DNA from: Phycisphaerae bacterium
GTDB taxonomy: Bacteria; Planctomycetota; Phycisphaerae; UBA1845; PWPN01
Length of the DNA stretch: 64,000 nt
Direction of reading: 5' to 3'
Assembly: GCA_012729395.1 (NCBI GenBank)
Contig: JAAYDF010000104.1
Location: forward strand, 1-64,000
Shown here: piece by piece, positions 1 to 10,334 of the stretch
How the letters are laid out: every line of letters begins with the position of its first letter
Position numbering within the stretch: position 1 is the stretch's first letter
Position numbers and translations under genes: made by a program
Notes under the pieces: model-generated
The model's database searches: none
Told to the model about the DNA's origin: nothing
The model's input: the letters and a program-made list of their open reading frames with translations, nothing else

Positions 1-732
1 ACGGCCTCGCTCATGGTGACATCGACATAGGCGTTATCCGCGGGCACGGTCCCGCCCTCGATAACCGGTGGCAACTCGTCATTGAGATTCAATGCTCCGG
101 TGGTCTGTCCGGCAGCCATCGCGTGGCCCACCGCGTCGAAGATCGAGTTACCGTCGGCCGGGGTGATGGTGACCGTTTCCAGTCCGTCGGGTACGCCGGT
201 GACATCGAGGACCACCCGGATGACGGTCTCGCCGCCCACCAAAGCGCCATCGGCGTTGTTGGTCAGGCTGTTGATCGTGACGTTGGTGGCATTGCCGCCG
301 TTCTGATCGAAGGTCAGGGTAAAGTCAGCCGCCTGCAGGGCCCCGGTCCCGTCGTTGTTGGCATAGACGGCCTCGCTCATGGTGACATCGACATAGGCGT
401 TATCCGCGGGCACGGTCCCGCCCTCGATAACCGGTGGCAACTCGTCATTGAGATTCAATGCTCCGGTGGTTTCGGCGGCATCCATGGGGTTGCCGACCAC
501 ATCGAATATGGAGTTGCCGTCGGCCGGGGTGATGGTGACCGTTTCCTGCCCGTCGGGTACGCCGGTGACATCGAGCACCACCCGGATGACGGTCTCGCCG
601 CCTGCCAAAGCGCCATCGGCGTTGTTGGTCAGGCTGTTGATCGTGACGTTGGTGGCATTGCCGCCGTTCTGATCGAAGGTCAGAGTGAAGTCAGCCACCA
701 CCAAGGCTCCAGTCCCATTGTTGTTGGCGTAG
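1..732 (-). repeat. Two tandem near-identical 366-bp coding repeats
   Basis: The sequence starting at position 1 restarts at 367 with very few changes, and a third start of the same module is seen at 733. The period is exactly 366 bp, so each unit encodes 122 residues in frame. A more diverged relative lies at about 1090-1450. The near identity of the first two copies at the DNA level points to recent duplication inside the giant lipoprotein gene. More copies probably follow beyond the left edge. Confidence 0.9.
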
Positions 733-3700
733 ACAGCTTCACTGATGGTGACGTCGACGTAGGCGTTGTTGGCGGCCACGGCACCGTTGTCGATGGTCGG
801 TAGCGTGCCAATTGCCCCTCCGACGTGGGTACCGCTGTTGCCGCCCGGATCGATGGCCAGGCCGGCCGCATCCTCGACATTGGCGACGGTGATGGTGATG
901 GTGCCGCCGTCGAGCATCTCCTCGGGTGCCAGCCAGGTAAGGCGATAAACGGTTCCGCCCTGATGGGTGACGGAGTCGGGATTATTGGACAGCGTACCTT
1001 GGCCGGTCCCGGAGACGGTGTAGTTGGCGGCCGTCGTGACGCCGGCTCCCATGGTCTCGCTGAAGGTGACGTCGATATTGAGTTCGTCGAACACGCTGAC
1101 GCCGGTAACAGTCGGAGCCAACTGGTCGTTCAGGGTGATGTCACCCGTAGTGGCACCGGCGGGCATGGGGTTGCCTGACGCGTCGAAGATGGTATTGGCC
1201 CCGGCGGGGGTGATGGTGACCCGTTCGACGCCGCTGGGCACACCGGTGATATCGAGGACCACGCGGATCACGGTTTCGCCGCCGGTCAGAGGCGCGCCGG
1301 TATTTCGCGTGAGGCTGTTGATGGTGACGTTGGTTGCGTTTCCGCCGTTCTGGTCGAAGGTGAGGGTAAAGTCGGCGGGCACGAGGGCGCCGGTTCCGTT
1401 GAAGTTGGTGTAGACGCCGAGAGACGTGGTCACGTCGATGTAGGTGTTGTCGGCGGCAATAGCGCCGTTGGTGATGCTGGGTGTAGCGGTGTTGATCACG
1501 ATGGCCTTATTGGCGGCAAGACGATTCGCCACGTCGGGCATGATCACGAGGACATTGTTACCGGCGGCATCGCGAAGCGTGCCCAGCAGCTCGATATTGA
1601 TGGACTCGAGATCAGCGCTGGCATCGCCGGCCTGGACAACGTAGGTACCTGAGGCAATGTCGTTGAGTGCGAAGGGGAAGATTTGGACGACGTAGTTGGT
1701 ATCCAGCCGGACGTTTAGCGTACCGCTGAGCAGCGTGACCGGCTGGGAGAACTGCACGGTGATGTTGACCGCGGAGCTGACGCCGTACACGCCGTCCGGG
1801 GTGGTGGAAGTGATCCCAATCACCTGGGCACCGGTGTTATTGACTTCGACGAGATCGCTATCACTGAGCTGGCTGGCGTTACCGAGCCGATCGGTTCCGG
1901 CGCCGACCCGAGCGCGGAGGGAGTAGTGCCCGTCGCCGGTCACGCCGGTGACGGGGACGATGTAATTTCGAGCATCGAGGGCGGTGATGGCCCCGATGGT
2001 TCCGTCGGCGGTGGTGCCGCCCGAATCATGGACGATCTGGACGCCGGCGGCGCTGAAGCCGGTGACATCCTCGTTGAAGGTCACGGTGAAGCTGACGGTA
2101 GCATCCTGGTTGACGGGTCCGAGGTTGTCGGGTGTCAAGGTCACCAGGGGGCCGGTACGGTCGAGTCGGGCGGCAAGGGTTACCGTGCTCGCGCAGTCAT
2201 TGCTGATAACGGCTCTGTAGAGAGACGGTTCGCCCTGGTCTTCAGGCAGGACCTCGTCAATGGTCAGTGTGGCGGTCAGAGTCCGGGTTTCATCCGTGGT
2301 ATCGGCCGGGGGCACGTTGACGACGATGCGGCCGTCGCCGGTGGAGCGAACGGTTTCGAAACCGTTGCCTACGTTGCGTTCCCAGGTCACGCTAAACAAT
2401 CCGCCGTCGATTCCGGCCTGGGTGGTCACGGAGAAGACGGCCGGATCGGTACCGGCGCCGATCTCGGCAGGCTCCACGAGGATGGCGGGCTCGTCGCCTG
2501 GGTTGCATCGCGTTCCGACGCCTCCTTCCTCGCCCACCTGAGCGGCCAGGGACTGGCGTACACTGTTGCCGCGTTGGTCGGTGACGGTGGCGGCGACGTC
2601 GAAAGTTGCCGCGTCGTCGGGCAGTCTCAAGGCGGCTGAGGTGGCGGTTCCGGAATCGATGATAGCCTGGTTGAGGAACGGCCGGCCAAACGAGTTGGAC
2701 CACGCATAGGTATAGGGAGGCAATCCGCCGCCCACGCCAGCTGAGACGTCGACGGTATCGCCGCCGCGAGGCCGGGCCGGGTTGCTGTTCAACACGATGG
2801 TTAGTGGAGCGGCCACGGTAATGGACAGGGCGGTCGTGGCGGTGTTTCCCTCACCGTCGGTCACGATAGCCCGGAAGAGCGGGGCGCCGATGATCGAGGT
2901 GTCGGCGTTGACCAACATGGTGCTGGTGAAGGTATCGGGCACACCGTCGCCGTCGGTATCGGTGAACAGGACACCGGTCGGCGTGACCACGTCGGGATTG
3001 CCGGGTTGATCGTTGACAAGCCAGTTGATGGCGTAGAACTCGCCGGGCAGGTCGAGGTCGGGTGATCCGCCGATGAGCGTAGCGGTCAAGGTCGTGCTCG
3101 GCGTGGCATTGACGGTGCCTTCGTGTGTGGGATCGGATGGAACGACGATGGACTCGTGCGGGGCCACGGCCAAGCTCACGGTCAAGGGGCGATCGGGCGG
3201 GCGCAGTTCGATGACGCCCGTGCCCAGCAGGAACTCATCATCTCCCACCAAGCGAGCATTACCCGCAACGACGGGGGTTCGGCCGAAGAAGGCGATGGTG
3301 ACTTGCAGCGGCTCGGCGACGAAATCGGGCGGGAAGTAGTCGGCGCCGAACAGATTACCGCCAAGCGAACGTACCGCTTGAGGATCGGTGCTTCCGCCGG
3401 TACCGGCACCGGTGCAAGTCAGCGTACCGAACGCCGGCGTGGGGGCATCGAGTGAGAAGTCGAACAGCAAATCGGTCGCGCCGGGCCTTTTCACCTCGGC
3501 GATGCGGTAGAATACCTGCGAACCATCCAACCTCCGCGGGGTCACGTTGGCCGCCTGGTCACCGGGATCACTCACCAGCGGGGCCTCGAAAACGAAGGTC
3601 ACGCCCTCGCCGCACTGGTTCGTGAAACCGGTAGGCAGAGAGGAGCGAACAACCGATTGGCCTTGTTCGAGGGCCTGGCCATCGAGGGGTACAACCGAGA

Positions 3701-3878
3701 TGGTGTCGCCGGCGCGAGGCGCACGGGTTTCGGGCTCGGGACCCGGCACGGGTGGCCCGGGCGGGATCGGATCTCCCGAGGGCGGATCATAGGGTGCCTC
3801 AGGAGCTGCGGGGACGCATCCCCAAAGGGCCAAAAGCAGAGCGGCACCGACGATGCTCACTATCCACGTGCGGATCAC
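1..3878 (-). CDS. Giant Ig-like repeat lipoprotein, C-terminus beyond window
   Basis: The minus strand is open from a GTG at 3878 through the left edge without a stop, so about 1290 residues are visible and the C-terminus is missing. GGGAGG lies 8 bases before the GTG. The N-terminus has a hydrophobic stretch ending ALLLALWGC, a plausible though not ideal lipobox, followed by a Pro-rich linker. The rest is a chain of beta-rich modules. Near the left edge these become about 122-residue repeats containing the phrase TLTFDQNGGNATNVTINSL and then an ETVTITPADGNSIFD-like phrase, typical of bacterial Ig-like or SwmB-type adhesin domains. One module carries a DTDGDGVPD run that could bind calcium. 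It is the last visible gene of a minus-strand series after the FecR-like and TPR-barrel genes. It is probably a surface or stalk-like structural protein; the exact function is unknown. Confidence 0.82.
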   Translation of the reverse strand, partial: MIRTWIVSIVGAALLLALWGCVPAAPEAPYDPPSGDPIPPGPPVPGPEPETRAPRAGDTISVVPLDGQALEQGQSVVRSSLPTGFTNQCGEGVTFVFEAPLVSDPGDQAANVTPRRLDGSQVFYRIAEVKRPGATDLLFDFSLDAPTPAFGTLTCTGAGTGGSTDPQAVRSLGGNLFGADYFPPDFVAEPLQVTIAFFGRTPVVAGNARLVGDDEFLLGTGVIELRPPDRPLTVSLAVAPHESIVVPSDPTHEGTVNATPSTTLTATLIGGSPDLDLPGEFYAINWLVNDQPGNPDVVTPTGVLFTDTDGDGVPDTFTSTMLVNADTSIIGAPLFRAIVTDGEGNTATTALSITVAAPLTIVLNSNPARPRGGDTVDVSAGVGGGLPPYTYAWSNSFGRPFLNQAIIDSGTATSAALRLPDDAATFDVAATVTDQRGNSVRQSLAAQVGEEGGVGTRCNPGDEPAILVEPAEIGAGTDPAVFSVTTQAGIDGGLFSVTWERNVGNGFETVRSTGDGRIVVNVPPADTTDETRTLTATLTIDEVLPEDQGEPSLYRAVISNDCASTVTLAARLDRTGPLVTLTPDNLGPVNQDATVSFTVTFNEDVTGFSAAGVQIVHDSGGTTADGTIGAITALDARNYIVPVTGVTGDGHYSLRARVGAGTDRLGNASQLSDSDLVEVNNTGAQVIGITSTTPDGVYGVSSAVNITVQFSQPVTLLSGTLNVRLDTNYVVQIFPFALNDIASGTYVVQAGDASADLESINIELLGTLRDAAGNNVLVIMPDVANRLAANKAIVINTATPSITNGAIAADNTYIDVTTSLGVYTNFNGTGALVPADFTLTFDQNGGNATNVTINSLTRNTGAPLTGGETVIRVVLDITGVPSGVERVTITPAGANTIFDASGNPMPAGATTGDITLNDQLAPTVTGVSVFDELNIDVTFSETMGAGVTTAANYTVSGTGQGTLSNNPDSVTHQGGTVYRLTWLAPEEMLDGGTITITVANVEDAAGLAIDPGGNSGTHVGGAIGTLPTIDNGAVAANNAYVDVTISEAVYANNNGTGALVVADFTLTFDQNGGNATNVTINSLTNNADGALAGGETVIRVVLDVTGVPDGQETVTITPADGNSIFDVVGNPMDAAETTGALNLNDELPPVIEGGTVPADNAYVDVTMSEAVYANNDGTGALQAADFTLTFDQNGGNATNVTINSLTNNADGALVGGETVIRVVLDVTGVPDGLETVTITPADGNSIFDAVGHAMAAGQTTGALNLNDELPPVIEGGTVPADNAYVDVTMSEA

Positions 3879-3909
3879 GATCGTTTCCTCCCATTGGCCG
3901 CGGATTCGA

Positions 3910-4905
3910 TCAACGGCCGGGACTTAGATTCAGCGGTGGTCTGACCTCTCGGTTAAACAACAGATTGCTCGGCTCGGGGACTCCGACGACGCGGGCTCGT
4001 CCCAGCCGGGCACCCACCACCACGGAGGCGGGGTTCTCGCTGGCCAAGAGGGCCTGGACACCCGACACCCGTTGCGGAGGCTGACTTGCGGACACACTGG
4101 AAAGCGGCGGCAAGACGTTCGCGGCGGCGGCACTCACCGTCGCGACCTGGGCGGAGGGCTTGGCGACCGCAGCGGCCCGGACCTCCGGCACTTCGAAGGT
4201 ACCCAGCAACTCGCCTTCCGGGTCATTGGGAGTGAGGTCGCCGCGCTCGGCCCGCCCGAGCCAGTCGGCCGGGGCGTCGAGCCCCATGCCGCTGTGCAAG
4301 GCGGCAATCAACGCGGCAGCCTCGGACGAGAGCGGGGCGGGGGTGAGGCTCTGGCCGCCTTCGACGGCTTTGATCTCGCCGGCGGGTGCATGACCGTCGA
4401 ACCGCACCGCGGACCCGGCGGACATGAACGTCCACTCCACCCGGTTGTCGGTAACGGCCACGCGAAGCACGCCACCGTGCAAGCGTACCCAGCCGCCGCC
4501 CGCGACGATCGCCACGGGTTCGCCATCGGACGCCTGGTAACGAATCAGCGCGACCCCTCGTTGCACGGTGATCTGCCGATGACGTACATCCTCGCCCGCC
4601 AAACGCAGCTGGCTGTCGGCGTCGAGGTAGACGCTGGCCTGGGCCGTCGGCGACTGTGGCTCGCCGGCAGCCAAGTAGATCAATGCCGTGTTGCCGGTGA
4701 TTGTGCTGACGCCTGTCGCGGGGCGAAGCCGTTGGCCCTGTCGCAAGTCGCTCTGGCCTGGAGGATCGAGTGCGTAATCGAGCACGAAGCCCGTGTCCGG
4801 GGGGAGAACCACCGTGCAGGCACCTTCCAGGGTCGATGCCTGCGCCCAGACGAGCGGTGCCGGCAGCATCGCCGCAAGCCCGGTCAGCAGAATGGCAACG
4901 CGCAT
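3910..4905 (-). CDS. FecR-like secreted protein
   Basis: A 331-residue protein with an N-terminal signal peptide (MRVAILLTGLAAMLPAPLVWAQA). The chosen ATG at 4905 is preceded by GAGGTGG, and the upstream gene stops 13 bases before it. Residues about 75-190 form a FecR-like beta domain (runs such as ITVQRGVALIRYQ, GWVRLHGGVLRVAV and VRFDGHAPAGEIKAVEGGQS). The C-terminal third is rich in Ala, Ser, Pro and Val. FecR domains are known as periplasmic regulators of sigma factors, but stand-alone secreted versions beside TPR/outer-membrane proteins are thought to have structural or peptidoglycan-related roles. No sigma factor is seen here, so the second type is favoured. It sits between the TPR-barrel gene and the giant lipoprotein gene with short gaps, probably in one operon. 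Confidence 0.6.
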   Translation of the reverse strand: MRVAILLTGLAAMLPAPLVWAQASTLEGACTVVLPPDTGFVLDYALDPPGQSDLRQGQRLRPATGVSTITGNTALIYLAAGEPQSPTAQASVYLDADSQLRLAGEDVRHRQITVQRGVALIRYQASDGEPVAIVAGGGWVRLHGGVLRVAVTDNRVEWTFMSAGSAVRFDGHAPAGEIKAVEGGQSLTPAPLSSEAAALIAALHSGMGLDAPADWLGRAERGDLTPNDPEGELLGTFEVPEVRAAAVAKPSAQVATVSAAAANVLPPLSSVSASQPPQRVSGVQALLASENPASVVVGARLGRARVVGVPEPSNLLFNREVRPPLNLSPGR

Positions 4906-4918
4906 CAGACCACCTCGA

Positions 4919-7066
4919 TCAGTTGAAGGACAACACGAGACTGAAACCGTAGAGCGCTCGCTCATAGGAGAACACGGCCTGCCGGGAGCGATCCCTCACA
5001 TTGCTGTCGTCGATGACAAACTGAACGTCGCCCCGCAGCGTGAGCACCACGCGGTCGACCTTGATGGTGCGACGATTCTCGGGCAGGCCGGGAACGAGCA
5101 CGAAAGATCGCTCGAGCCCAAACCCATACCGCTGAACGAAGTCGTCGCGGCCGCGGCGGTGGAAGTCGATCAGGCTGCCGCCCCGCGTTCCGCCGTAGTT
5201 CTCCCAACGCCATTCGCCGCGGAAATCGAACATGACGCCGTAGGGCAAAGGCACCTCTACCCCCGCGGCAAGCAGGTAGTTCTTGCAGTCCCATTCCTCT
5301 CCGCGGGTGGCGTCCCAGCCGTACTCGACGCCCACATAAGGCCGGAGCCACCGCTGGTCGATTGTGTCGCCTTCCTGTGGATCGTGCCGCAGCCCCCAGG
5401 GCTCCCAGCCGATCCCGCGATACAGGGCGGTCATATCCACCGCATCGTAGGCCTGGTTCAGGAAGAAGGCCAAGTAGTTGCCGTCGCGGTTATACCTGCG
5501 ATCGTACAAGGGTTCGAGGTAGTTGCGGTCCTCGTAACGCATGCCGAAAGTGGTCAGCGCCCGCTGATCGAAAGTGTAGAGGGCGAACCGCGGCGTCACG
5601 CGGTTATTGCGGAGGAAGCCGTCGTTGCCCAGCAGGAAGTAGTCGTAATCATACTGTACGGCGAAGAACAGCGGGCCGTGCTCGGGCCCGTCCTCGTCGC
5701 GTTTGGATTTGAGCAACTCGTATTGCAGAGCCACACTGCCGCCGTGGTCCTGCTCGTTATAGCTGGTGACGTCGCCATGCCAACTGCCGGACGACCGGCC
5801 GCCCAAGCCGAGGGTCAAGCCCTCCAGGTCGGGGCTGAGTTTCGCCAGGTCGAGTGTGTAGCCGAGAGCCACGCCGGTCTCGAAGCGAGTGTCTTTCGAC
5901 CTCCCGATCTCGCGTGGAATGTCCGTCCGCTCACCCAGCAGGATGACGTTGGTGTCGTAGGTCAGCCCCATGCGCCAATCGAGGCGGAAATCTTCCGCCG
6001 GCTCGATCGCCGGGCGAGCCTTGGCCAACTCCGCCTCGATCTTGGCGATCAGGTCGTTGGCCCGCTCGGTGATCACGTTGCTTCGCGACTGGCCCTCTGG
6101 GTCGGTGTCGTAGCGTCGTGCCTGTTCGAGCTGCCGCTGAGCCTCTTTGAGCGTGAGCTGGGCGCGGTCGAAGTTGGTCTGCCGGCCGGCTTGGTGGATG
6201 CTCACCAGGCCAAGGTAGAAGTACGGGTAGCTGAGCCAATGGGGGGCGGCAGCCTGCTCCTCGCGAGGAGCGGCGGCCAGCACGGTCTCGACGTACTCGG
6301 GCGAGGATTCGTCCACCATGGCGGACAGGACCCGGTGAGCCTCCTCCAGCCGGACGAGATCGACGACCCGGTCCTGGCCCTCCTCGACGGGCGGGACCGC
6401 TTGGCGGTACAGGATGACTCCCAGGAAGAATCGGCCGCGAACGCGGTTCAACCCGCCGGCCCCGATCTGACCGGGCTCGACCGCCCGCTGCAGGTAGTGC
6501 TCGAGAGATTGCCGGGCGTGGTCGAGCAGATCGGTCTGCTCGACCTGGGGAACGTCGGGCATGCCCGCCAGCTTGACGCGAGTCACCGCGTCGAGCAGGA
6601 GCACCACCGCCTCACGGCTGGGCAACCCCTCGCGAAGCAGGATGTCCAAGTCGGCGTGCATGCGGGCGTACAACTCGCGAGCCGCCGTCTCTTCCTGCTT
6701 CTGCCGTTCCGTTTCACCCTGGACGGCAAGCCGCCGGGCGGCCCATTGGCGCGGGACCGCCTGCTGGCCGCAACTCAACGCGCGCAGGAACCGGGCGGTC
6801 ATGTTCTGAGGGTCGGCCTCAAGCAGCCGCGTCAGACAGGTCTCGCTGTCTGCGTACTCCCGTGCGTTGTAGAGCATCATCGCCCGGTTGAGCAGCAGGT
6901 GGGGGTCGTCCTCGGTGGGAGCCGCGTCCTGAGCCACCACCCACGTCGTACCCATCATCGGCAGGAGCAATAGGATCACGACGCGTGCGAAGGGTCGCGA
7001 GGCACCGGCAGCCCGCCGGTGTGATTCCGCACTCCTGGAACGCACGCTGAAGCGGGTCGCCTTCAT
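4919..7066 (-). CDS. TPR plus outer-membrane beta-barrel protein (Slam/DUF560-like)
   Basis: A 715-residue protein. The ATG at 7066 has AGAGG upstream; longer starts are possible but lack a ribosome site. After a long basic N-region comes a signal segment (ARVVILLLLPMMGTTWVVAQ). Residues about 40-330 are helical TPR-type repeats (HLLLNRAMMLYNAREYADSE and later similar units). The C-terminal half has alternating beta strands opening with WRMGLTYDTNVIL and ending YGFSLVLSFN with a terminal aromatic strand, typical of an outer-membrane barrel. TPR followed by a barrel that opens with a YDTNV-like phrase is the architecture of surface lipoprotein assembly modifiers (Slam, DUF560). The next genes encode a FecR-like protein and a lipoprotein, a plausible substrate. 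The Slam relationship is inferred from architecture only. Confidence 0.65.
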   Translation of the reverse strand: MKATRFSVRSRSAESHRRAAGASRPFARVVILLLLPMMGTTWVVAQDAAPTEDDPHLLLNRAMMLYNAREYADSETCLTRLLEADPQNMTARFLRALSCGQQAVPRQWAARRLAVQGETERQKQEETAARELYARMHADLDILLREGLPSREAVVLLLDAVTRVKLAGMPDVPQVEQTDLLDHARQSLEHYLQRAVEPGQIGAGGLNRVRGRFFLGVILYRQAVPPVEEGQDRVVDLVRLEEAHRVLSAMVDESSPEYVETVLAAAPREEQAAAPHWLSYPYFYLGLVSIHQAGRQTNFDRAQLTLKEAQRQLEQARRYDTDPEGQSRSNVITERANDLIAKIEAELAKARPAIEPAEDFRLDWRMGLTYDTNVILLGERTDIPREIGRSKDTRFETGVALGYTLDLAKLSPDLEGLTLGLGGRSSGSWHGDVTSYNEQDHGGSVALQYELLKSKRDEDGPEHGPLFFAVQYDYDYFLLGNDGFLRNNRVTPRFALYTFDQRALTTFGMRYEDRNYLEPLYDRRYNRDGNYLAFFLNQAYDAVDMTALYRGIGWEPWGLRHDPQEGDTIDQRWLRPYVGVEYGWDATRGEEWDCKNYLLAAGVEVPLPYGVMFDFRGEWRWENYGGTRGGSLIDFHRRGRDDFVQRYGFGLERSFVLVPGLPENRRTIKVDRVVLTLRGDVQFVIDDSNVRDRSRQAVFSYERALYGFSLVLSFN

Positions 7067-7187
7067 CCTGAAACCTCTTGTGAACGCTCGGTTGTGCTGG
7101 AGGTCGGACCTCACCATCGGCGAAGGGCTCGCGGCCAATCAATGCGGCCAACTTCTTGCCGACTGCTTTCGCCGGACATGTCGGGCG

Positions 7188-7367
7188 TCAGCCCTGTCCC
7201 GCACCCTGCAGGATGGACGCCTCCAGAATGTTGACCACCGTCTGCACCAAGACGCGCACCGCCGTCGAATACGCAAAATCCTGAAGCTGGCGGTCGGTCA
7301 CGCCGCAGCCGAGACTCGACACCGTCACCGGCAGAGTCACCATGGCAAGATACATCAGCCGTTGCAT
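7188..7367 (-). CDS. Small lipoprotein, 59 residues
   Basis: A very short gene with AGAGAGGA upstream of the ATG at 7367. A hydrophobic N-terminus ends in a clear lipobox (TVSSLGC). The mature part is about 37 residues and predicted helical (VLVQTVVNILEASILQG). It lies just upstream of the TPR-barrel gene and downstream of a second gene of almost the same size and similar C-terminal pattern, so the two look like diverged duplicates. The function is unknown. It could be a small accessory of the surface-protein locus. Confidence 0.55.
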   Translation of the reverse strand: MQRLMYLAMVTLPVTVSSLGCGVTDRQLQDFAYSTAVRVLVQTVVNILEASILQGAGQG

Positions 7368-7429
7368 GCTCAAATCCTCTCTGCCCGAAGGCCCGCCGGG
7401 GAGGACAACCGGACACCAAGCCCGCTGAG

Positions 7430-7612
7430 CTACCTGATGGCCACCAGCAGGTTATCCAATACGAATATGCCGATTTCCGTCAGCGTCTGCAGAAACGCCC
7501 GGAACGCGATGTCGGGATCGCTCAACAAACAGGCTTGCTGGAAGACCACCACCGGGCCGCCCAGACCGACGAACGCGCTCCACTTTCGCCAGTTCACACC
7601 TCGATCTGCCAT
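7430..7612 (-). CDS. Small hydrophobic protein, 60 residues
   Basis: The ATG at 7612 has GGAGG five bases upstream. The product has a basic N-terminus (MADRGVNWRKW), a hydrophobic segment (FVGLGGPVVVFQQAC) with a Cys where a lipoprotein Cys could sit, and a hydrophobic helix near the end (IGIFVLDNLLVAI). Length, Cys position and the AFLQTLTEIGIFVLDN tail resemble the next small lipoprotein gene (RVLVQTVVNILEAS). It heads the minus-strand series that ends in the giant repeat lipoprotein. The function is unknown; the reading relies on the good ribosome site and the similarity to its neighbour. Confidence 0.45.
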   Translation of the reverse strand: MADRGVNWRKWSAFVGLGGPVVVFQQACLLSDPDIAFRAFLQTLTEIGIFVLDNLLVAIR

Positions 7613-8190
7613 AGGGTCCTCCGAGCATCGAAGGCCAGATGAAATGCGGGGATGAACCTGAAGGCCCAACTTGCGCCACAGGGCCTTGATGCCCGGCCAC
7701 ACGCCTCCGGGCATGAACACTCCGCACGCGGCACTGGCTTCACCGCAGGTACCGTGAGCATAGGGTACACCCCCTACCGCGTCAAGGCCGGGTACAAGGA
7801 TTCCAGCGCCGATGGCCACCCCGCAACGGGTCCGCGCCACGGGCGACCGGTGCAAGCGAGCCGGGCATCGCTGGACGGCCCATGCGGGAGTAGACTCCGC
7901 CATTCCCGCGACGACCGGTGAGTCGGTACCTCGGCACATGTGGCGGGGCAACTCGTGCCGTGGCAGGACGAGGGAACCCGGGGGCTCGCGTCCCCGGCTC
8001 ACACGTCCCCGGCTCTCGCGTTCTGTGCTCACACGTCCCCGGTCGGGGCACGGTACGTCGGCGCACGCTGGGATGACACGCCTGGCAGTGAGACGACGCG
8101 TCGCAAGGTGGAGCAACTCGTCCCGCAGTGCGGGTGACTCGCCGCGGTGGGCTTCGACCGATACACTGGGTCGGCCGAGAAGGAGGCTTT
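7613..8190. other. Non-coding gap with short GC-rich repeats
   Basis: A divergent intergenic region between the minus-strand surface locus and the plus-strand acyltransferase gene. Between about 7970 and 8046 the phrases CACACGTCCCCGG and GCTCGCGTCCCCGGCTC recur, giving a small imperfect tandem/inverted repeat. The open frames here are low-complexity Arg/Pro/Gly translations of this repeat and I do not accept them. No clear promoter could be picked. Confidence 0.5.
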
Positions 8191-8856
8191 GTGGCGGAGA
8201 CGACAGAAACGCGGCGGCAAGGCGACGAGTGGCGCTCGTTGTTCAAGTCATGCGGGCGGGAGGTGCGCATCGCCCCTGACGCGTGGTTCGAGCATCCCGA
8301 GCGCATGGAGGTCGGCGACCATGTGACCTTCATGCGGGGGTTCCATATGCTCGGGGAGCCGGCCGTCTGCCGCGTCGGCTCGCATGTGACCTTCTATCCC
8401 AACTGCTTCGTGCAGGGCTCGCCCGGCCGGTTCATCGTCGGCGACCACGTCGAGTTCTTCCCCGGTGCCTACATCTCGCTGGGCGACTGGGAGACGAGCT
8501 TCATCGACATCGGCCACCACTGCCACTTCGCCCCAAACTGCGTGCTTTACGGTTGGGGCGGGCTGAGCATCGCCGCGTACTGCAACATTGCCGCCCACGT
8601 GGTGTTCGCCACCGTCGGGCATCATGACGAGATCACCGACCGCCCCATGGCCCTGACCGGCGAGAAGGCGGCACCGATTACCCTGGAAGAGGACGTCTGG
8701 ATCGCGGCCAACGTGACCGTCGCGGCCGGCGTCCGCATCGCTCGCGGCTGTGTCATCGGAGCCAACGCGGTCGTCACCCGCGACACCGAACCGATGGGTC
8801 TGTACGTCGGCGTACCCGCCCGACGACTGCGCGAGCGAAAAATGGTGTCAGGATGA
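8191..8856 (+). CDS. Left-handed beta-helix (hexapeptide repeat) acyltransferase
   Basis: A 221-residue protein. The GTG at 8191 is preceded by AAGGAGG four bases upstream, better than any earlier start. It contains many imperfect hexapeptide turns (VGDHVTFM, VGSHVTFYPN, VGDHVEFFPG, IGHHCHFAPN) and ends with the classic VWIAANVTVAAGVRIARG / IGANAVVTRD / YVGVPARRLRER pattern of maltose/galactoside/serine O-acetyltransferase relatives. The catalytic-type His appears in TVGHHDEI. The acceptor is unknown; surface-sugar acetylation is a reasonable guess. The last codons (KMVSG and the stop) lie inside a palindromic element, so the original C-terminus was probably replaced by element sequence. Confidence 0.85.
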   Translation: MAETTETRRQGDEWRSLFKSCGREVRIAPDAWFEHPERMEVGDHVTFMRGFHMLGEPAVCRVGSHVTFYPNCFVQGSPGRFIVGDHVEFFPGAYISLGDWETSFIDIGHHCHFAPNCVLYGWGGLSIAAYCNIAAHVVFATVGHHDEITDRPMALTGEKAAPITLEEDVWIAANVTVAAGVRIARGCVIGANAVVTRDTEPMGLYVGVPARRLRERKMVSG

Positions 8857-8922
8857 TTTTTGCGGGGGTGAAATTGCGGAGGCGATTCTTACCCCCGCAA
8901 AAATCATCCTGACACCATTTTT
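8838..8922. repeat. Perfect 32-bp inverted repeat, palindromic element copy 1
   Basis: Arms 8838-8869 and 8891-8922 are perfect reverse complements with a 21-base loop. The outer arm contains ATGGTGTCAGGATGATTTT. The same outer arm and a similar loop (containing GCG-A/G-AGGCG) recur at 10942-11022 while the inner arm differs, so this is a mobile palindrome family rather than a simple terminator. As RNA it would also form a very stable hairpin between the acyltransferase and the next gene. Confidence 0.92.
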
Positions 8923-8942
8923 CTCTTGAGAGGAGGCTGCAG

Positions 8943-10334
8943 ATGCGACATGGACTGACACTGCTGTTTGCCATGGGGTTTGCTTGGGGCGGCCCGGCCA
9001 CTGCCGCGGAGCTGTCCGTCGGCGTGGCGACGGTGGAGATCACCCCGCCGCCCGGCTGGCGAATGAGCGGCTACTTCCACGAGCGGATCAACACCGGGAC
9101 ACACGACCCGCTCCACGCCAAGGCCATGGTGTTTGCCGACGGTGCCAACCGTGCGGCCCTGGTGTTCTGCGACCTGATCGGGGTGCCGCGAGAGGTGACG
9201 CACAAGGCCCGCACGCTGGCCGCCGAGCGAACCGGTATCCCCAGGGACCACATCATGGTGGCGGGGACGCACAGCCATACCGGGCCGCTCTACTTCGGCT
9301 TGGTGCGCGACCGTCTGCACGCGCGGGCGGTCAAAGAGCATGAGAAAGACCCCTGCGAACCGATCGACTACGTCGCGGCACTGACCGAGAACATCGCCCG
9401 GGCGGTCGAGCAGGCCCACGCGGCCCTTCGACCGGTCCGCATCGAGACGGGCACCGTCGAGCCGAAACCGCAGCTCGCGTTCAACCGCCGCTTCCACATG
9501 AAGGACGGCAGCGTGCGCTTCAACCCTGGGCAGAACAACCCGGACATCGTCCGCCCGGCCGGCCCGATCGACCCTGAGGCCGGCATTCTGCTCGTGCGCG
9601 ACACCAACGGCGGCAAGCCCCTCGCCTGTCTGACCGTCTTCGCCCTGCACCTCGACACCACGGGTGGCACAGAGTATTCCGCAGATTATCCGCACTACCT
9701 CGAAAAGGGTCTTCGGGCGTCGCTGGGGGAGGGTCTGGTGTCGCTCTTTGGGGTCGGCACGTGCGGCGACGTGAACCATATCGACGTGACCACTACCGAC
9801 CGGCGCAAGGGCGAAGAAATTGGCTCGCTGCTCGCCGACGCGGTGGGTGACGCCGTGCCCCGCCTGCGTTCCGTCGCTTCCGCCCCGCTGGCCGTGCGGC
9901 ACGCCACGATTGAGGCCCCGCTGCACGAGTTCACCACCGAGCAGGCCCAAGAGGCCGCGGAGGTCTTCGAGCAGTTCGGCAGCGGCGAGGTGCCCTTCCT
10001 CCGCATGGTGGAGGCTTGCCGCACTCTGGATCTGCAAGCCCGCGGCGTGCGCTCCATCCCACTCGAAGTCCAGGCCTTCCGCCTCGGCTCCGACGTGGCC
10101 GTCGTGGCCCTGCCTGGCGAGATCTTCGTGGAGTTGGGCCTGGCCATCAAACAGGCATCGCCCTTCCGCACCACGCTGGTCGTCGAGCTGGCCAACGACT
10201 ACCCGTCCTACGTCCCCACGAAGAAGGCCTTTGCCGAGGGCAGCTACGAAACCGTCAACTCCCGCGTCCAGCCCGGCACCGGCGAACGCCTCGTCGAAAC
10301 CGCCACCGCCCTGCTCAAAGCCCTCGCCCCGTAG
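8943..10334 (+). CDS. Secreted neutral/alkaline ceramidase-like amidase
   Basis: A 463-residue protein; GAGAGGAGG precedes the ATG. A signal peptide (residues 1-22, ending GPATAA) is followed by VGVATVEITPPPG, the usual opening of the neutral/alkaline non-lysosomal ceramidase family in Planctomycetota. Metal-ligand-like motifs are seen: GTHSHTGP near residue 103, FALHLDTTGG near 233 and GTCGDVNH near 272. It is shorter than true neutral ceramidases (about 650-750 residues) and matches the shorter environmental subfamily. It probably acts outside the cytoplasm on an amide bond in a lipid or related substrate; the true substrate is unknown. Confidence 0.8.
   Translation: MRHGLTLLFAMGFAWGGPATAAELSVGVATVEITPPPGWRMSGYFHERINTGTHDPLHAKAMVFADGANRAALVFCDLIGVPREVTHKARTLAAERTGIPRDHIMVAGTHSHTGPLYFGLVRDRLHARAVKEHEKDPCEPIDYVAALTENIARAVEQAHAALRPVRIETGTVEPKPQLAFNRRFHMKDGSVRFNPGQNNPDIVRPAGPIDPEAGILLVRDTNGGKPLACLTVFALHLDTTGGTEYSADYPHYLEKGLRASLGEGLVSLFGVGTCGDVNHIDVTTTDRRKGEEIGSLLADAVGDAVPRLRSVASAPLAVRHATIEAPLHEFTTEQAQEAAEVFEQFGSGEVPFLRMVEACRTLDLQARGVRSIPLEVQAFRLGSDVAVVALPGEIFVELGLAIKQASPFRTTLVVELANDYPSYVPTKKAFAEGSYETVNSRVQPGTGERLVETATALLKALAP

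Follow-up and report, generated by a model that had tools for sequence, protein, structure and literature searches.

Slam (DUF560) proteins, described from Proteobacteria, fuse a periplasmic TPR arm to an outer-membrane barrel and act on clients that are encoded nearby and may or may not be lipidated (PMC8406197, PMC9090332). In the LptD-LptM pair, a very small lipoprotein acts with an outer-membrane barrel (PMC10567701). MYXO-CTERM proteins, such as TraA, CglD and MtsC, combine TSP3 repeats with a Cys-TM-Arg tail; the cysteine of this tail is believed to carry a lipid that anchors the protein on the surface, with the type II secretion system (T2SS) as the presumed export route (PMC11980579). 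A TPR arm joined to a barrel also characterizes the exopolysaccharide exporters BcsC and PgaA, and a periplasmic FecR fold is found in anti-sigma regulators such as PupR and BDI_1681. To our knowledge, the route by which very large planctomycete proteins reach the cell surface is largely open. We report a planctomycete locus that shares single features with each of these systems and whose core is most likely an outer-membrane platform exporting or anchoring giant surface proteins. Among open-licence papers on FecR, Slam, giant genes and Phycisphaerae surface systems, we found no description of this gene set. Its compactness, conservation and clear architecture make it a concrete candidate for giant-protein display in planctomycetes.

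Organization of the locus

The window, i.e., the whole 64,000-nucleotide stretch of DNA analysed, opens with the first base of contig C67, which belongs to a 5.7-Mb draft genome with an estimated completeness of 99.55%. The five same-strand genes of the original prediction are all present where they had been placed (Table 1). From T1 to the giant gene, the intergenic gaps are 62, 121, 13 and 31 bp, a spacing which suggests that the five genes form a single operon. A promoter and terminator scan returned one weak promoter-like site approximately 145 bp upstream of T1, a consensus match that alone is no proof of a promoter, and an Rfam search of positions 1-9000 gave no match.

Table 1. Features of the locus in window coordinates
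Feature	Position	Strand	Length	Basis and remarks
T1 tiny lipoprotein	7430..7612	-	60 aa	Shine-Dalgarno-like GGAGG upstream of ORF
T2 tiny lipoprotein	7188..7367	-	59 aa	Family alignment
TPR + 14-stranded outer-membrane barrel protein	4919..7066	-	715 aa	Sec signal peptide; AlphaFold2
Secreted stand-alone FecR-fold protein	3910..4905	-	331 aa	AlphaFold2 core + weak Pfam FecR
Giant lipoprotein, N-terminal part	3..3878	-	1292 aa, open frame	Lipobox read directly
Tandem repeat within giant gene, where the contig breaks	1..781	-	366 bp (122 aa)	TRF: 2.1 copies, 90% matches

Conservation of the gene block

Whole-genome searches identified barrel orthologs in relatives from the same family, order and class, and the named records with close barrel relatives come from uncultured Planctomycetota, most of which bear the label Phycisphaerae or Phycisphaerales. 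The order T1-T2-TPR/barrel-FecR-like is kept in 35 genomes, namely those with a barrel ortholog, scored only where the contigs reach. These genomes represent five families of one, mostly Phycisphaerae, order, with barrel identities across the conserved loci as low as 25%. In a 294-genome sample of the phylum, no long barrel orthologs were found outside the window's order; two weak matches occurred without partner genes. Both tiny genes are located upstream of the barrel gene in every genome whose contig reaches far enough, the count being 35 genomes for T1 and 36 for T2 (G321 included, where the adjoining stretch is masked), with T1 always upstream of T2. In G314 the T1 position lies beyond the contig, and in G005 the T1-T2 pair closes one contig while the barrel gene opens another. 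In the window's own genome, the only copy of T2 is the one at this locus. Wherever it could be tested, a FecR-like gene directly follows the barrel gene; a profile recognized it in 33 genomes, and in G238 it was assigned from position and size alone.

The gene that follows the FecR-like gene encodes a large lipoprotein in 16 genomes and a large Sec-exported protein without a lipobox in 4; the same place holds a run of N in 5 genomes, no giant in 3, and cannot be read in 7 because of a contig end, a gap or a frameshift. Of the 28 judgeable genomes, 25 thus have a large Sec-exported gene or, at its expected position, a run of N. At six loci (L049, L052, L055, L056, L058 and L059), the runs of N at this position are several kb long. 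The five-gene adjacency of the original prediction recurs across the related genomes surveyed, with the giant absent beside the core in three (G042, G088 and G238) that retain the other four genes. Because these four genes persist without an adjacent giant, and because lipidation of the giant varies, what is conserved is a core of four genes whose cargo can be exchanged. Previously taken for accessories, the tiny lipoproteins and the FecR-like protein are rather parts of this core.

In many genomes, the region upstream of T1 encodes a protein of 1400-2300 aa with a degenerate protein-kinase domain, in both orientations (L046, L047, L055, L056, L058, L059, L075, L077, L078, L080, L083 and L084). 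The Pfam Pkinase match in L080 has an E-value of 1.3e-06, and the catalytic loop reads HGGLCPG, not HRDxKxxN. In the window, this kinase-like protein does not adjoin the block.

Tiny lipoproteins T1 and T2

The two products of about 60 residues, left as either hydrophobic proteins or lipoproteins in the original prediction, come from real genes, and both are lipoproteins: in each family, an invariant lipobox cysteine follows a hydrophobic stretch. Among the 20 aligned T1 members, C28, F50 and N54 are invariant, a Q and an L are nearly so, and the lipobox is loose at position -3; among the 23 aligned T2 members, C21, Q27 and F31 are invariant. The mature part of T1 comprises ~33 residues with a hydrophobic C-terminal helix, and that of T2 ~39 residues with an amphipathic helix, within a range of about 28-47 residues over both families. 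The moment of T2 is usually above that of 65-100% of shuffles, whereas T1 is more evenly hydrophobic. The two profiles are alike (hhalign 96.3%), a likeness partly accounted for by the signal peptide.

In close pairs, T1 has pN/pS values of 0.10 and 0.18 and T2 a value of 0.31, so both tiny proteins are under purifying selection in the pairs tested. Since members of both families precede the barrel gene throughout and pN/pS is low (0.10-0.31), chance ORFs were ruled out. Neither protein has a Pfam match at E-values up to 1, and LptM was rejected as their family for this reason. T1 and T2 also differ from LptM in occurring as two in tandem; the role that we propose for them resembles that of LptM, and they would then be a further case in which mini-lipoproteins are constant partners of an outer-membrane barrel.

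T2-like tiny lipoproteins are also encoded between the genes for an SH3-domain-type protein and a CsgG-like lipoprotein (L112:1063-1236 and L125:4773-4943), in genomes that showed no long barrel. More T1/T2-like lipoproteins of 50-60 aa, with the pattern GGC...FLQTxFLGITAAGxIAIxQNI, are located at L111:6436-6594 and L113:969-1130, the former adjoining an exosortase-like and polysaccharide gene cluster. The tiny-lipoprotein family may be wider than this locus.

Predicted folds of the TPR-barrel and FecR-like proteins

The union of a TPR domain with a barrel, as originally proposed, is borne out by an AlphaFold2 model based on a 15-sequence alignment (mean pLDDT 82.9, pTM 0.54), in which 12 TPR-like helices precede 14 strands; at this pTM, the angle between arm and barrel is uncertain. 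In Foldseek searches, the barrel part matched CymA and OmpG, both of 14 strands, and the TPR part matched BamD. By sequence, NCBIfam matches were almost only to TPR families, and TPR proteins were the only PDB sequence matches of note. A search of a viral structure library returned generic barrels and TPRs only.

The FecR likeness of the next protein is weak by sequence (Pfam FecR E-value of 0.004, below the cut-off) but was confirmed by its predicted fold. The AlphaFold2 core, residues 65-190, which is about the only part modelled with confidence, matched the FecR-family structures 4m0h/4m0n and PupR 6ovk as its top four chains, and the next match dropped to a probability of 0.06. Judged by this model, the core has a true FecR fold. 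It lies between low-complexity flanks and is accompanied by a conserved C-terminal motif. Unlike the FecR anti-sigma regulators, which share the periplasmic fold, this protein is secreted by Sec on its own: the signal peptide is followed by a periplasmic domain only, with no transmembrane helix or cytoplasmic anti-sigma region seen, and no sigma factor or TonB receptor gene lies beside it in the neighbourhoods read.

Giant proteins and their anchors

In the window, the giant starts with the lipobox LLALWGC, followed by a Pro/Gly/Asp-rich tether and by Ig/PKD-like and 122-aa repeats. Because contig C67 starts at the first base of the window, the giant gene is cut by the contig end inside the 366-bp repeat. 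A search with this repeat located the C-terminal end of the protein on another contig (G000:C4:1-690), where two further repeats precede the end of the frame; the complete giant is therefore at least about 1,500 aa long. The next gene past it (C4:774-2249) encodes TSP3 repeats and a Cys-TM-Arg tail. In five genomes, the giant is followed by a protein of this TSP3/C-terminal-anchor type, the homologs beside the giant being those in L045, L048, L123 and L109.

Lipoprotein giants of the same type (lipobox, Pro/Gly/Asp-rich tether, Ig/PKD-like repeats) occupy the same place in 15 further genomes, and in most of those from family f3 the repeats are preceded by an N-terminal domain that bears a SxxRSxLIRxDxxEG-like motif. 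The lipid-anchored giant that had been predicted is thus found, with Ig/PKD-like repeats, in 16 genomes, but it is not a constant feature, since one barrel clade adjoins giants without a lipobox. Two non-lipoprotein giants are complete (G275 and G123), both with Sec signals and LCGFG-TM-Arg-rich C-terminal tails; the G275 protein carries invasin/Big_1-like and TSP3 repeats. The tails and TSP3 repeats of the non-lipoprotein giants and of the post-giant gene product resemble those of MYXO-CTERM proteins, from which they differ in having no NCBIfam match to the CTERM model itself; only the TSP3 part matches the CglD/MtsC models, far below the cut-offs. Pfam scans of the giants detected Ig, PKD, SprB, Big_1, invasin D3 and TSP3 only, and no TbpB-type 8-strand barrel domain.

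A maximum-likelihood tree of 34 barrels is divided by a main split with a support of 100/100. Clade 1 includes 16 barrels with lipoprotein clients, i.e., all 16 whose client is known, and 3 with unreadable clients. In clade 2, no client is a lipoprotein: 4 are non-lipoproteins, 5 positions hold a run of N, 3 have no giant and 3 are unreadable. Genomes of family f5 fall in both clades, two of them in clade 1, indicating that the type of client goes with the barrel rather than with the species family. The match of clade to anchor corresponds to a single split of the tree and thus counts as one evolutionary contrast. This division between N-terminal and putative C-terminal anchors would offer a direct test of what the barrel recognizes.

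A proposed outer-membrane platform and its main alternatives

Based on these observations, we propose, with about even confidence, that T1, T2, the TPR-barrel protein and the FecR-like protein together make up a single outer-membrane platform whose clients are the adjacent giant, repeat-built surface proteins. The formation of the complex, the direction of transport, the surface exposure of the client and the part played by each subunit all belong to this model. The barrel would reside in the outer membrane and, with its TPR arm in the periplasm, would bind the client after Sec export. T1 and T2, as helices of about 30 residues in the inner leaflet, may stabilize or gate the barrel in the manner of LptM with LptD. 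A beta-rich adaptor linking client and TPR arm might be provided by the secreted FecR-fold protein. The client would then be transferred to the cell surface or retained there by its lipid, at the N-terminal cysteine in one clade and probably at a C-terminal cysteine in the other.

A 14-stranded barrel is narrow as a protein channel unless it opens, which counts against the platform as the exporter itself. The main rival to the proposed platform, somewhat unlikely in our judgement, is that the giants cross the outer membrane elsewhere, e.g., through a T2SS, and that the barrel with T1, T2 and the FecR-like protein only anchors or retains them. The small barrel fits this docking role, as does the presence of secretins of the T2SS/T4P type in all eight genomes tested, which makes an alternative export route possible; additionally, the Cys-TM-Arg tails of the non-lipoprotein clade resemble those of MYXO-CTERM proteins, which are thought to be exported by the T2SS (PMC11980579). 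Nevertheless, no secretin gene was seen beside the locus, and retention alone requires neither a dedicated TPR arm nor two lipoproteins. In five genomes of family f5, the secretin domain is part of an unusually long open frame of 4200-4900 aa (G088:C2:918895, G238:C1:2508492, G123:C8:99203, G275:C80:4295 and G117:C29:129948).

We consider it unlikely that the core is an outer-membrane/peptidoglycan or barrel-assembly device with a role of its own, beside which the giant is merely a frequent neighbour. The three genomes that have the core and no adjacent giant would fit such a device, and T1/T2-like lipoproteins beside CsgG-like lipoproteins in G319 and G252 indicate that the tiny lipoproteins are not tied to giants. 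On the other hand, a large exported gene comes next in most of the readable genomes, and the client type tracks the barrel clade across species families.

There is a real chance that the block is a system separate from the other TPR-barrel outer-membrane machines. More specifically, and only as a tentative possibility, it may be a distinct system for outer-membrane secretion or surface display that belongs to none of the numbered types and consists of a TPR/14-strand barrel, a pair of dedicated mini-lipoproteins and a FecR-fold adaptor, with giants lipid-anchored at the N terminus or by a MYXO-CTERM-like C terminus and each barrel clade matched to its anchor.

Comparison with described TPR-barrel machines

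A polysaccharide exporter of the BcsC/PgaA kind, with the giant as a matrix protein, is very improbable: the TPR plus barrel architecture is shared and BcsC is among the best structural matches of arm and barrel together (9b8a, structural match 3), but no polysaccharide synthase gene lies beside the core in any neighbourhood read, none of 21 barrel orthologs matches the BCSC_C or PgaA Pfam families, and the best barrel matches are 14-stranded (CymA, OmpG), whereas the BcsC and PgaA barrels are 16-stranded.

Equally improbable is a true Slam/DUF560 (type XI) system so distant that sequence similarity has been lost, although the TPR arm and barrel layout, the client beside the gene and the lipid-anchored clients of one clade all recall Slam, and 2 of the 21 orthologs touch the Slam TPR model (best E-value of 0.033). 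Generic TPR models far outscore that model, and the arm-barrel layout, common to BcsC and PgaA, is not specific to Slam. PF04575 (SlipAM) matched none of the 21 orthologs at E-values up to 0.1 and nothing in the window's own genome at E-values up to 1; it had no match over 150 genomes, among which no positive-control genome matched either. No Slam structure was among the Foldseek PDB matches of the barrel model. The clients here, giants composed of Ig/PKD/invasin-type repeats, lack the TbpB-type barrel domain, the neighbourhoods contain no TonB or TonB receptor gene, and T1, T2 and the FecR-fold protein, fixed partners here, are not known in Slam loci. Membership of the Slam family, to which the original prediction had likened the barrel, is thus not upheld; with two tested Slam-defining features, the domain family and the client domain, having failed, Slam is at most the nearest working likeness of the core.

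Short barrel paralogs of about 440-600 aa, examined at 15 loci of the same order, have no T1, T2 or FecR-like neighbours at the thresholds used, apart from one weak, distant T2 match in L070; the gene set is therefore specific to the long TPR-barrel. The window's own genome encodes, without T1, T2 or FecR-like partners, one further member of this paralogous family, a shorter TPR-barrel protein of 479 aa (G000:C264:553-1989, L011).
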